DNA of 47,448 bases, from assembly GCA_902798815.1 (NCBI GenBank), contig CADBYH010000020.1:1-47448 (forward strand), in the 5' to 3' direction. The translations under genes and the position numbers were made by a program. Positions 30,193-36,566 of this stretch are shown piece after piece (position 1 is the first letter of the stretch; the number at the start of each line of letters is the position of its first letter). Under the pieces are notes generated by a model that worked only from the letters and a program-made list of their open reading frames with translations, searched no databases and was not told the DNA's origin. The DNA is from an uncultured Erysipelotrichaceae bacterium. Lineage in GTDB: Bacteria > Bacillota_I > Bacilli_A > RF39 > UBA660.

Positions 30193-30220
30193 ATTATACA
30201 AAATGAACAAAAAAAATCAA
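30193..30220 (-). promoter_or_regulatory. Promoter for pcrA
   Basis: TTGATT (30220-30215) and TATAAT (30198-30193) on the minus strand have a 16-base spacer. The -35 box is embedded in the terminator of the preceding gene. Confidence 0.5.
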
Positions 30221-30237
30221 ACAAGTTTGTTTGATTT
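30209..30237 (-). terminator. Terminator after the membrane/coiled-coil gene
   Basis: A 10-bp stem (30237-30228 with 30223-30214) with a 4-base loop is followed by T residues on the minus strand, ending the surface protein-sortase-membrane protein unit. Confidence 0.78.
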
Positions 30238-31106
30238 TATTGCATTTTATATAAGTTTAAAAGCTCATTATATTTTTTTAATTCTTCTTGTTCGATTTTA
30301 ACTTTTTCTTGAGCTTCTTTTTCTTTTTGTTTTTGTTCATTTAACATTTTTAATAACAATTTATAATCATCTAATGTTAACATTTTTTCAAGTTCAGCTG
30401 TTTCTGGATTATTGATTTTTATAGGTTTACTTGGTGCTTTTCCATAAATACGTGAAGGTATTTCTTTTGGTGAAAAATTCTCTGGTAATTTTTTTACTTT
30501 CTTCTTTATAATTACTCTTCTTACCTTTGGTTTATAATCTTTTCTTAAGTATATTAAGAATAACTTATATATAACTAAGAATATAATCCATACTATAAAT
30601 AATGTGCTTGATAATGATATTAATGCACTTGCTGACTTGTTTTCATACACAGATGTTTGATTAAATATATCTAATGATTCATTCTTAACAATATTTAATA
30701 TAAGCATTAATAAGTAATTCATTATAATGAATACTACTACATTTAATACTCTTATTAATTTTGATGATTTAAAACTAAATATACTTATCCATAATATTAT
30801 ATTTGTTGCTATTAGCGCTGCTAAATAAACTGCAAGATTTGGAAAAAATGCTGCGATGAAGAAATTATCCATCATATATTTAAGCATTTTACCAAGAGAG
30901 TCATAGTAAGATACGCCAACAAAGATAATAACAAATAATACTATGATTGAATATATAATTCTGTTTCTAGATGCATTTTTCTTATTTGTTGTTAATAAAG
31001 TTATTCCTATGAATACTAATAATATTAAAACAACTATGTATAGATTAGAAGATTTTGATACATCTAATAGTATCTTTAACTTATCAATAAACGATAGTTT
31101 ATTCAT
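30237..31106 (-). CDS. Polytopic membrane protein with cytoplasmic coiled-coil tail
   Basis: This 289-residue protein has five or six hydrophobic segments in the first 190 residues, then a basic linker (KKKVKKLPENFSPKEI) and a C-terminal helix of about 45 residues rich in Glu/Lys/Gln, probably a coiled coil. I do not recognise a family. Its start (ATG 31106, after GGGGGGAG) lies 27 bases after the sortase stop, and all three genes share one promoter and one terminator. It is therefore a candidate partner in display or assembly of the thioester surface protein. That role is inferred only from position. Confidence 0.7.
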   Translation of the reverse strand: MNKLSFIDKLKILLDVSKSSNLYIVVLILLVFIGITLLTTNKKNASRNRIIYSIIVLFVIIFVGVSYYDSLGKMLKYMMDNFFIAAFFPNLAVYLAALIATNIILWISIFSFKSSKLIRVLNVVVFIIMNYLLMLILNIVKNESLDIFNQTSVYENKSASALISLSSTLFIVWIIFLVIYKLFLIYLRKDYKPKVRRVIIKKKVKKLPENFSPKEIPSRIYGKAPSKPIKINNPETAELEKMLTLDDYKLLLKMLNEQKQKEKEAQEKVKIEQEELKKYNELLNLYKMQ

Positions 31107-31133
31107 ATCTTACTCCCCCCTAAATTATTCTTT

Positions 31134-31778
31134 TTATTCTACACTTGTTAGTTCTGCAATATATACTGTTTGTGATGTCGAATCATTATTTGTACATGTA
31201 ATTAGTGTTAAAGTTGTTTTGCTGTAATCTCTATATATTGCTAATTTTCCTATCTTCGGTTGTTTATATATATTAACTATTGTATAGTTATATTTTTTAC
31301 CTTTATAAGTAATGTTTGCAGTATCACCTACATTAAGTTTATATAAATCATTGAAAAATGAATTCCATCCTGTTCCTGAGTGTCCTGCAATAATAAAGTT
31401 TCCATTTTCAACATCAGGATAATTTGATCCACTTACTACTAAAAGATTTTTATCAACATCATTTTCAGTTGATCTACTATCTAAAAAACCTTTAGTAAGA
31501 TTAATTTTTGGTATTGTTAAATATCCAATGTAGTCATTAGTTACTTCCCCTGTTAATTCTTCTTGTTTTTCTTCTTTTTCTTCAGGGATTACAACTAATT
31601 CAGTCCCTGTATAATATGCTTTTGACATATAGTCATAAGCATATACTTTTTCTGCTTGGATATAATTATAAAAAAGAAAGAACCCCCCAATGAGTGTTAA
31701 TAGTGCTCCAATAAAAGCTGTTACACTAGGAGGTGTTCTTCTTATTTTTTTATTATTGGTATTAGGCTTTTTTTGCAT
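31134..31778 (-). CDS. Sortase with Gln at the expected catalytic Arg
   Basis: This 214-residue membrane-anchored sortase would attach or link surface proteins carrying a C-terminal sorting signal. One membrane segment (about 18-40) is followed by the beta-barrel domain with the catalytic His in FIIAGHSGTG (about 133) and Cys in LTLITC (about 195). The Arg expected about 8 residues after Cys, in the R-x-V/I strand, is replaced by Gln (STSQTVYIAEL, about 203). I use ATG 31778, which overlaps the 3' end of the surface-protein gene by 17 bases, so translation is probably coupled. A GTG further upstream is possible. The substrate is presumably the upstream gene's VPDTA protein. The class is uncertain. 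Confidence 0.83.
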   Translation of the reverse strand: MQKKPNTNNKKIRRTPPSVTAFIGALLTLIGGFFLFYNYIQAEKVYAYDYMSKAYYTGTELVVIPEEKEEKQEELTGEVTNDYIGYLTIPKINLTKGFLDSRSTENDVDKNLLVVSGSNYPDVENGNFIIAGHSGTGWNSFFNDLYKLNVGDTANITYKGKKYNYTIVNIYKQPKIGKLAIYRDYSKTTLTLITCTNNDSTSQTVYIAELTSVE

Positions 31779-33054
31779 TTTTGTATACAAATCTAATTCC
31801 AGCACCTGTTAATACAATACCTAAAATTATCATAATTACTGATGATGCATTTGCTGTATCTGGAACATATACTTCTTTTGCATTAACAAATGTTATTTGA
31901 TGTGTTAAATGGTCTTTATCAATTGTAATTGTAAATACTTTATCACTTTTAATATAACCTGTTGGTGCACTTAATTCTTCAATTGTATATGTACCATATT
32001 CTAAGTCAGTTACTATTTCAGCTTCTTCTTTTGTAGGGAACTTATAAACTATTGTTCCATTTGAATCTTTAATTGCTAAAACAGCTCCTGCTAATGGTTT
32101 GTTAGTTTCTTGATCAACTTTTAAAATACTAACAACTGGTTTTTTAGTTTCTTTAATTAATTGTAATGTTAGTGCTGCAGATGCACTTTTTGCTGTTTTT
32201 TCAAGTAATGCTACATTTTGCATATTTGTATTAACTGGTTGATATTCATAAGCTGTATATTGAGCATTTCCTACTGCACTTGCGTTAACTTTAATTGATA
32301 AACTTTCTGCAGTAACTTTTGCTTCTGGTACTTTTACCACAAAGCTTTCATTAGCGTTAACAGTAAATTCACCAGTATAGTTAGTTCTTGCACCACTTTT
32401 TTCAATTATAGTTCCTGCTGGTGCTCCTGTTAATGATACTTTATAAGAACTAATATTTTGTGCTACAGTTGCTTTAATACTATTTGATTCATAGTATCCA
32501 TTATTTAATTTCATTGTAATATCATTTGTTGATATTGATAACTTAGTATCTGCGATTGAGATAGAATCATTTTTATGTTTAATTCCATCATTAACTAATT
32601 GTTTTACATATCTTCTTAAGTTATATGAATCAGATCCAGTGTTTTTAAATTGATCACCAAGATTTGATGTTCCTTTAACTTCATCTAAATACCACCAAAC
32701 TGCTGTTTGAGTAATATAATAGTCATATGATTTATCTCCAGTTATTGATTTATTTGGATAACCATTTTTTAATATGTAAACAATACCACCATCGATATAT
32801 TTACTATTTCTAACTATGTTTGCTTTAACATTTGCTGCTGTTGTTTTTGGCATATTTAAACAATATAAATATTTCCCATCTGTAGTTTTTTTATCACTGA
32901 AATATACACCTGCAATGTAATTTCCAGTGTATGTTGCATCTCCTAGTTGAATTGATTCACTTGCTGCATAAACTTTAGTTGTTGATGCTAGAATAATTGC
33001 TGTAGCTACAATCATTGCTAACATTTTTTTTGCAAATTTATTGAATTTTTTCAT
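31762..33054 (-). CDS. Wall-anchored surface protein with thioester (TQXA) and CnaB domains
   Basis: This 430-residue protein has a signal peptide (1-30, ending KVYAA), a TQXA thioester domain (about 40-175), a middle beta domain, a CnaB/SpaA domain (about 300-393), and a sorting signal: VPDTA at about 397-401, a hydrophobic helix and a basic tail. In thioester domains, Cys (YLYCLN, about 65) and Gln (TQTAVWW, about 116) form a bond that can couple to host molecules. The CnaB domain has the Lys (ILKVD) and Glu (IEELSAPTGY) expected for an isopeptide. VPDTA departs from LPXTG at the first and last positions. Start: ATG 33054 after GGGGGGAAG. It is first in the operon with its sortase. Confidence 0.88.
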   Translation of the reverse strand: MKKFNKFAKKMLAMIVATAIILASTTKVYAASESIQLGDATYTGNYIAGVYFSDKKTTDGKYLYCLNMPKTTAANVKANIVRNSKYIDGGIVYILKNGYPNKSITGDKSYDYYITQTAVWWYLDEVKGTSNLGDQFKNTGSDSYNLRRYVKQLVNDGIKHKNDSISIADTKLSISTNDITMKLNNGYYESNSIKATVAQNISSYKVSLTGAPAGTIIEKSGARTNYTGEFTVNANESFVVKVPEAKVTAESLSIKVNASAVGNAQYTAYEYQPVNTNMQNVALLEKTAKSASAALTLQLIKETKKPVVSILKVDQETNKPLAGAVLAIKDSNGTIVYKFPTKEEAEIVTDLEYGTYTIEELSAPTGYIKSDKVFTITIDKDHLTHQITFVNAKEVYVPDTANASSVIMIILGIVLTGAGIRFVYKNAKKA

Positions 33055-33083
33055 CTTTCTTCCCCCCAACTCAATGTGCATAT

Positions 33084-33112
33084 ATTATAACACAATAGTA
33101 TTTTTTTTGCAA
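33084..33112 (-). promoter_or_regulatory. Promoter for the surface protein/sortase operon
   Basis: TTGCAA (33112-33107), a 17-base spacer ending in TGT, and TATAAT (33089-33084) on the minus strand form a -35 plus extended -10 promoter, about 30 bases before the start codon. Confidence 0.65.
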
Positions 33113-35816: not shown

Positions 35817-36566
35817 TTACACCTCAATATATACTCCAGGCATATCATCATAAATATCTAGTGCATCTCCATAGAATCCAAATACACTACCATATCCTAT
35901 TGGTGATATATTGAACATTTGAGCAGTTGTTGTAGTTGAATTTGACATTGCATGTTGATAACTACCGTATATTGTTCCTGTTCCTTGGTATATGAAGTTT
36001 TGAGTAACAACAACTTCTTCTCCAATTGGAATGTGAATAACCGCCCCAAAACCAAGTCCATTTGGATCATATTTAGTAGTGTATTCATTATTTGATGCTA
36101 ATTCTGAATATGCTGTTGTTAATGGATTTGTTAGTTTTGTTGGTCCATCTAGATATATTCCAATATCATCATAACTCTTATTTGTTGGTTCTCCAAGCCA
36201 TGTAGCTGTTAGGATAATTCTACAGAAAAGATTTCCACATACATTTGATATTTGTAGACTTTTTGCTGGACTACTAAAAAATGTATTACTATCTCTTGTT
36301 ACACCGTTTTCATTAGAATATACTTTTCTAGTTTGAACATTAGGGTTTTCAAAATCAACATCACTATACAAATCATATGTATCTTGATCTAAATATTTTA
36401 AAAACTTTTCTCCATACACTGTTTTAAAAAAGTTATACTCAGCTGTATCAAGTTCCATTCCATTTTTATTGGTATAAACTATCTCTTTAGCATATGTATT
36501 AGAACACATAAAATATGCAACTATACCTATAACAATTACTAAAATGTTTTTACAATACTTTTTCAT
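35817..36566 (-). CDS. Secreted protein of unknown function beside a membrane XRE regulator
   Basis: This 249-residue protein has a clear signal peptide (basic MKKYCKN, hydrophobic core, cleavage near NTYAKE) and then a mostly beta-rich domain. Two cysteines (VCGNLFC) are close enough to form a disulfide. I do not recognise a family, and there is no sorting signal or membrane segment after the signal peptide, so it is probably released. Start: ATG 36566 after AGGAGGAG. It lies 68 bases downstream of the membrane-anchored XRE regulator on the same strand, so the two may be one unit. A link between the regulator's outer domain and this protein is a guess. Confidence 0.72.
   Translation of the reverse strand: MKKYCKNILVIVIGIVAYFMCSNTYAKEIVYTNKNGMELDTAEYNFFKTVYGEKFLKYLDQDTYDLYSDVDFENPNVQTRKVYSNENGVTRDSNTFFSSPAKSLQISNVCGNLFCRIILTATWLGEPTNKSYDDIGIYLDGPTKLTNPLTTAYSELASNNEYTTKYDPNGLGFGAVIHIPIGEEVVVTQNFIYQGTGTIYGSYQHAMSNSTTTTAQMFNISPIGYGSVFGFYGDALDIYDDMPGVYIEV

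Follow-up and report, generated by a model that had tools for sequence, protein, structure and literature searches.

Sortases with glutamine in place of the catalytic arginine in uncultured gut Bacilli, and a membrane protein encoded behind one branch of them

Introduction

The triad of His, Cys and Arg is stated to be common to all sortases in the available part of a 2026 paper (PMC13257024). According to the accessible sections of PMC9520033, the Arg of Streptococcus pyogenes SrtA contacts the P4 and P3 carbonyls of the substrate, not the P1 carbonyl, and the Thr that precedes the Cys is placed for the oxyanion; the corresponding portion of PMC13104033 makes the same argument for a substrate-binding Arg in the sortase of Staphylococcus aureus. 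Here we describe a three-gene operon in a 47,448-nucleotide stretch of DNA, referred to as the window (contig CADBYH010000020.1, assembly GCA_902798815.1), from an uncultured Erysipelotrichaceae bacterium of the GTDB lineage RF39; UBA660. The operon encodes a surface protein, a sortase and a third membrane protein. The sortase shares with its superfamily (PF04203, classes A–F) the fold, the N-terminal membrane helix, the TLxTC motif, the catalytic His and an adjacent substrate with a tail resembling a sorting signal. It differs in having Gln in place of Arg and in its VP[DN]T signals. Searches of an open-access paper collection listed no sortase in which Gln replaces the Arg; earlier reports elsewhere are possible, as are Gln sortases in Clostridia, a group that the genome samples seem to miss.

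Laboratory-evolved SrtA-beta (Arg197Ser, active on LMVGG), as portrayed in the accessible parts of PMC9520033 and PMC13104033, likewise has a polar uncharged residue in place of the Arg and a changed motif. By contrast, the window sortase is natural, its replacement is clade-wide and to Gln instead of Ser, and its motif keeps the Pro and the Thr. The surface protein resembles BaTIE (6fwv) and TIE-pLS20 (PMC8092201), as far as the available descriptions extend, in having a CnaB-type domain behind a thioester domain (TED) that contains the Cys and the Gln. However, it is smaller, has a single CnaB domain, ends in a VPDTA signal and has its own sortase adjoining, whereas TIE-pLS20 is reported, in the part of PMC8092201 at hand, not to be anchored by a sortase. 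A peptidoglycan wall is predicted for most RF39 species in the available part of PMC10868615, with a meso-diaminopimelate (m-DAP) type pathway in which some steps are absent; srtA/B sortases are given there as lacking in RFN20 and ML615J-28, not in RF39.

Glutamine at the position of the catalytic arginine

The three co-directional genes occupy positions 30237-33081 of the minus strand, in agreement with the operon proposed in a preliminary description of the window. Their features are:

31762..33054, minus strand: thioester/CnaB surface protein of 430 amino acids, starting at ATG 33054 within a frame that is open from 33081; from Pfam and alignment
31852..31866, minus strand: sorting signal VPDTA, residues 397-401 of the surface protein; from the sequence and the VP[DN]T context in relatives
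31134..31781, minus strand: sortase with one N-terminal transmembrane helix, probable start ATG 31781 (the open reading frame (ORF) opens at GTG 31805); from Pfam, the model and alignment
31380-31382, 31194-31196 and 31170-31172, minus strand: sortase codons of His142, Cys204 and Gln212, respectively (223-amino-acid numbering)
30237..31106, minus strand: third gene, 289 amino acids, five predicted membrane helices, predicted N-out/C-in; from relatives, linkage and loop charges
30840-30845, minus strand: codons of Phe88-Pro89 in the predicted exoplasmic YFPN-type motif of the third protein

The probable ATG of the sortase falls within the frame of the surface protein, and the sortase stop and the third-gene start are 27 nucleotides apart.

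The sortase matches PF04203 with 62.7 bits (cut-off 26.6) and TIGR01076 with 50.3 bits (cut-off 39.35). Its structural model, with a mean predicted local distance difference test (pLDDT) score of 83.7, has the sortase fold (VIA Z up to 18.0, root-mean-square deviation 2.4, 133 aligned residues), and its best sequence match in the PDB is 4d70, SrtD of Clostridium perfringens. Counted from the probable N-terminus MQKKPN..., the protein contains His142 and Thr203-Cys204. The catalytic Arg that the superfamily carries in the last strand is replaced by Gln212, which sits in that strand (residues 200-214 of the 215-residue model) and aligns with the Arg of Arg-bearing (R-type) sortases. The register is set by the following strand, which reads Q-x-[VI]-[YV]-I-x-x-L here versus R-x-[VL]-V-x-[AG]-x-[LR] in R-type sortases; an example is QTVYIAEL of the window sortase aligned with RYVVYADL.

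The retained His and Cys and the Gln at the Arg position had been noted in the preliminary description, and the combination proved nearly invariant across a clade. An alignment was made of 186 distinct sequences that match a profile of Gln sortases with E < 1e-30, taken from genomes of the window's order and from 80 named loci of metagenome-assembled genomes (MAGs). The Arg position is occupied by Gln in 183 of these sequences and by His in two, and is truncated in one; because the set was built with the profile, this count measures uniformity within the clade rather than the frequency of Gln. All 186 have the His, the Cys and the Thr that precedes it. The 80 named loci are the best 80 of 389 by the Gln-sortase profile and are not placed in the window's order. 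Five of the eleven R-type rows that were added to the Gln-clade alignment slip at the Arg column. The two clade sortases with His at this position are those of L195 and L199.

Sortases from outside the order, found with Pfam's own model, have Arg in 36 of 36 cases as read by eye from printed tails, a reading that covers 35 of 54 sortase places and one other; three further outside-order sortases, also read by eye, have Arg as well. Three non-sortase frames and two in-order genes, one with Gln and one with Arg, were dropped from this reading. The outside-order samples belong to the window's own phylum, and Clostridia seem absent from them. Within the order, 123 of 146 sampled genomes contain a match to the window sortase. 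The genome of the window has five sortase places, three of them with Gln (C20, which is the window, C34 and C14) and two with Arg (C5 and C1). Only distant matches to the sortase were found in phages and plasmids, with <60% identity over <80% of the query, and no relative was confirmed in viral contigs.

Judged from these alignments, Gln at the Arg position is a character of a clade, not a local mutation. Because the Thr, His and Cys are invariant in 186/186 sequences and Gln is kept in 183, the Gln sortases are, on the evidence of their sequences, not decaying enzymes. Members of the clade come from the window's order and from named gut MAGs, and many of these sortases lack the third gene. 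Gln and the VPxT signal, which the preliminary description treated as features of the operon, therefore belong to this larger clade.

Sorting signals of the glutamine sortases

For 165 of the 186 sortases in the clade, the gene upstream encodes a protein that combines an xPxT string with a hydrophobic stretch and a basic tail; among the 80 named loci, 73 have an upstream protein with an xPxT signal. At position P4 of the 165 strings, Val occurs 146 times, Thr 5, Ile 4, Ala 4, Ser 3, and His, Leu and Met once each. Position P2 is Asp in 78 and Asn in 58; P1' is Ala in 46, Gly in 44, Ser in 24, Asp in 14 and Asn in 13, with others in the remainder. The signals thus depart from the canonical LPXTG, which has Leu at P4 and Gly at P1': the window has VPDTA, and the clade has Leu in 1/165 and Gly in 44/165. 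The script takes the last xPxT string of a protein, and its picks in L035, L041 and L154 look wrong.

The same script found Val at P4 in none of 18 xPxT strings near Arg-type sortases. Nine of these strings come from outside the order, where 32 loci were covered (L 4, M 2, I 2, N 1), and nine from 22 loci inside it (N 4, L 3, I 2); the counts are small, some of the strings are not sorting signals, most of the loci have short flanks, and the LPxTG islands of G479 may be contamination. These islands (L251, L281) come from the same genus as the window and hold class C-like Arg sortases with LPITG/LPETG substrates; the contamination of that assembly is put at 6%. In the genome of the window, the C1 locus combines an Arg sortase with NPSTG. 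At C14 (L006 2823-4699), a divergent small Gln-type sortase (LTTCSPIHNNYQLIVNC) overlaps a VPNTH surface protein and is not accompanied by the third gene.

The surface protein

The surface protein consists of a signal peptide, a TED (PF08341, 41.5 bits, cut-off 22.0), a SpaA/CnaB domain in residues 308-392 (65.8 bits, cut-off 23.1), the VPDTA signal, a hydrophobic C-terminal helix and a Lys/Arg tail. The CnaB domain and the signal had already been recognized in the preliminary description, as had the Cys and a Gln of the TED. The Cys is Cys65 (codon 32860-32862), conserved in 88 of 90 aligned substrates, which were chosen for TQxAxW. The Gln requires reassignment: Gln116 (TQTAVW) is part of the TQxA motif at residues 115-120, and the thioester Gln is more likely to be Gln279 (NMQNVALL, codon 32218-32220), which aligns with BaTIE 6fwv and is conserved in 87 of the 90 substrates, including that of the window. 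Since the TED keeps Cys65 and Gln279, the surface protein is likely to be a covalent adhesin.

The third protein marks one branch of the clade

A homologue of the third gene lies behind the sortase gene in 28 of 28 chosen loci, which comprise 27 of 30 loci (L012 is the window; L023, L025 and L039 were dropped) and the C34 copy from the same genome. Of the 80 named loci, 79 are readable, and each of these has both genes, 78 of them found by script and L051, where the third gene overlaps the sortase, by its listed ORF; in the unreadable L101 the contig ends at the Cys codon. Among 70 strong matches to the third gene, counted without two matches with E above 1e-5, 65 lie 14-73 nucleotides behind a clade sortase. 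Of the five exceptions, G100 has the third gene in the same cluster with a substrate gene in between, and in G024 the sortase and the third gene lie at the ends of contigs, with orientations that match. In G093, G108 and G121 (genus g61), the third gene lies 7, 40 and 32 nucleotides, respectively, behind a MurJ/Polysacc_synt-type gene.

The third gene is present in 50 of the 146 order genomes, and the same 50 hold sortases of one branch, membership being defined by tree position for five loci and by a neighbouring third gene for the rest. Neither the third gene nor a branch sortase is present in 21 further genomes whose sortases were read; these are among the 96 that lack the third gene, and weaker matches in others were not fetched. 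The linkage and co-occurrence rule out a chance neighbour. They also bear out the co-occurrence check proposed in the preliminary description, which asked whether the gene is linked to sortases elsewhere. On a quick tree of 128 of the 186 sortases, calculated from their C-terminal 150 residues, the presence of the third gene requires 3 changes, versus 34.7 in shuffles. According to this tree, the third gene is a mark of one branch of the Gln clade, separate from and younger than Gln and VPxT. Among 296 genomes of the class, the matches to the third gene outside the family are three weak ones (E 6.5e-5 to 3.4e-4).

Both L109 and L118 have the sortase and the third gene and no recognizable upstream substrate; therefore, the link between the sortase and the third gene is tighter than that to the adhesin. 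In one genus (L277 5588-8645, L278 2681-5396 and L279 5377-8060), the third gene has moved to a place directly behind a gene for a MurJ-like flippase and near PcsB-type M23 hydrolases with a common Q[IL]P...[YF]..R-like ending at the C-terminus. Pfam names the MurJ-like neighbour in G108 and G121 and the PcsB-type M23 hydrolases in G093 and G121, the rest being assigned by sequence likeness. In L280 (4303-6078), a gene for a 591-residue protein, which has a sortase domain (373-537) and a tail rich in Glu and Thr, converges on a copy of the third gene at the contig end.

The third protein has five predicted membrane helices and a coiled-coil tail, and its model is of fair quality (pLDDT 84.7). 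As the preliminary description had it, the protein has no known family: searches gave no Pfam match over the cut-off, no PDB sequence match below E = 0.098 and no Foldseek PDB match below E = 1.1, and among 28 members no Pfam family scored better than E = 0.0004. The sole Pfam match of the window protein with E <= 0.01, to NAD synthase, was rejected: it reaches 20.0 bits (cut-off 21), occurs in 1 of the 28 members and lies on the charged tail. DUF6057 matches 2 of the 28, with a best E of 0.0007.

The net loop charge is about +3 in residues 39-47, 111-120 and 187-205, and about -0.8 in residues 67-90 and 140-156. These loop charges suggest that the N-terminus and residues 67-90 and 140-156 are outside, with the tail in the cytosol, hence the predicted N-out/C-in topology. 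Phe88 and Pro89 are each conserved in 146 of 149 aligned third proteins (matches with E up to 1e-8, the five exceptions and the window protein). Tyr94, Tyr154, Trp173 and, where the tail is aligned, Leu255 are also strongly conserved, and the predicted cytosolic tail has a conserved LTLDDYKLLL helix. SafA, an actinobacterial membrane protein encoded directly behind a sortase and bearing an exoplasmic Phe-Pro motif, has these features in common with the third protein, in which the side of the Phe-Pro is predicted from the loop charges. By contrast, the third protein is predicted to have five helices and, in the cytosol, a long coiled-coil tail, and it comes from a different phylum; the comparison is one of gene position and motif.

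The sortases of this branch have features of their own next to the membrane. A juxtamembrane [AVIL][YFWH]xx[MIFV] motif occurs in 76 of 86 sortases with the third gene versus 7 of 41 without it, 4 of these 7 belonging to the branch that moved the gene. The motif suggests a docking site for the third protein. Of 143 sortases accompanied by the third gene, 92 have a signal-peptidase-like [AVILST]xA motif behind the membrane helix, as do 5 of 43 unaccompanied ones (of the 43, one motif-bearing sequence and one other are cut by a contig end).

Proposed function

From the domains and the predicted fold, together with the conserved residues, the linkage of the genes and their co-occurrence, we infer a working sortase in which Gln serves as the donor to the substrate backbone and the third protein acts as a dedicated membrane partner near lipid II; we regard this as somewhat more probable than not. 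In this reading the operon is the surface-display module of a Gram-positive gut bacterium, and the surface protein would be exported and retained by its C-terminal helix. Cys204, aided by His142 and the Thr before the Cys, would cut VPDT|A. The amide of Gln can donate hydrogen bonds without carrying a charge, and in place of Arg, Gln212 in the last strand may offer such bonds to the substrate backbone at the carbonyls of P4 and P3. In a semi-synthetic study, citrulline in place of this Arg of a sortase reportedly caused a modest loss. The groove would accept Val rather than Leu at P4 and be lax at P1'. Lipid II would resolve the acyl enzyme, placing the adhesin on peptidoglycan, where its TED thioester may bond an amine on a surface. 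The exoplasmic YFPN face of the third protein could dock near the juxtamembrane [AV][YF]xxM segment of the sortase; the protein might hold the sortase at the membrane, bring it to lipid II, or both, and its cytosolic tail might recruit something inside the cell. Since the Arg is described as substrate-binding in the available parts of PMC9520033 and PMC13104033, its replacement by Gln together with a changed P4 residue fits.

Several observations weigh against this proposal. In the accessible portions of two papers, Arg-to-Ala mutants were inactive or strongly reduced (PMC13257024) and, for S. pyogenes SrtA, inactive (PMC9520033). The preliminary description suggested that the Gln and the signal may have evolved together. 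Gln does go with Val at P4 (146 Val and one Leu among 165), but Gln and VPxT probably arose once, and therefore their pairing is a correlation that need not be causal. The MurJ link is confined to one genus. The juxtamembrane motif tracks the third gene, but with too few independent changes for a test, and 51 of the 143 third-gene sortases lack the signal-peptidase-like motif, a difference that follows subclades. The profile-based assembly of the 186 sequences belongs here as well.

A broader proposal is more tentative, and we hold it to be possible, with the odds somewhat against it: an unnamed class of sortases, widespread in an order of uncultured gut Bacilli, may work without Arg, with backbone binding by Gln, a groove for VP[DN]T and, in one branch, an obligatory partner that couples the enzyme to lipid II. 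A natural Gln clade with a shifted signal offers a ready test of whether the Arg binds substrate or drives catalysis. Protein ligation might also draw orthogonal sortases from this clade, and the third protein is a candidate for a dedicated sortase partner in Bacillota.

Alternative explanations

The third protein might merely shield the sortase from signal peptidase, in the manner of SafA, and have no role with lipid II. This explanation, which we consider unlikely, draws on the position of the third gene directly behind that of the sortase, on the almost invariant Phe-Pro of its predicted exoplasmic face and on the [AVILST]xA motif of many partner sortases (92/143). However, the 51 partner sortases without the motif have the third gene nevertheless, in a pattern that follows subclades, and shielding leaves the MurJ neighbourhood of the third gene unexplained. 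SafA is also far smaller than the third protein.

A second possibility is that Arg192, which ends the loop leading to strand 7, has taken over from the missing Arg, so that the chemistry is unchanged. Arg192 is present in 28/28 close relatives and in 173/186 of the clade, and none of 11 aligned R-type sortases has Arg there. However, this position, 12 before the Cys, holds Lys in 8 of the 186 sequences, Trp, Thr and Ser in one each and a gap in two, while the Gln stays. An obligatory surrogate is unlikely because Arg192 varies and the Gln does not. In the S. aureus sortase, the residue 12 before the Cys is at the distal end of the strand 6/7 loop, off the active site, which also counts against Arg192. 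Overall, we consider a takeover by Arg192 improbable.

The operon might instead encode a pilus, with a class C polymerase and a TED pilin. The class C model NF033745 is the best NCBIfam model of the sortase by E-value, and CnaB domains occur in pilins. However, the score of 52.8 bits is far under the cut-off of 160, and the sortase lacks the C-terminal membrane helix of class C, ending at QTVYIAELTSVE right after the last strand. DPW/DPF is the lid motif of class C sortases, and neither was seen in the sequence. There is a single substrate gene instead of several. The sortase also falls short of the cut-offs that NCBIfam sets for its models of classes D (NF033746, 39.2 versus 165; NF058671, 47.1 versus 140), E and F. 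A pilus operon is therefore very improbable.

That the Gln sortases are catalytically dead and act as substrate-binding or regulatory proteins, as the Arg called essential in the available parts of the literature might imply, is hardly credible, since the Thr, Cys and His are invariant in 186/186 and 165/186 have a sorting-signal protein directly upstream.

Flanking features of the operon

The operon is flanked by ABC-transporter-like genes on the plus strand on one side and a UvrD/PcrA-like helicase gene on the other, all named by eye. Two putative control elements were noted:

33084..33112, minus strand: promoter-like TTGCAA-17-TATAAT with TG before the second hexamer, on the upstream side of the operon; consensus match only
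30195..30245, minus strand: probable terminator, from the end of the third gene through an A+T-rich hairpin to a T run; fold z-score -4.05

Promoter-like sites of that pattern number 27 in the region, versus 29.1 in shuffles. The A+T-rich hairpin behind the third gene was missed by a terminator scan based on G+C. Beyond the ABC-transporter-like genes, positions 35817-36566 of the window encode a 249-residue protein with a signal-peptide-like start.

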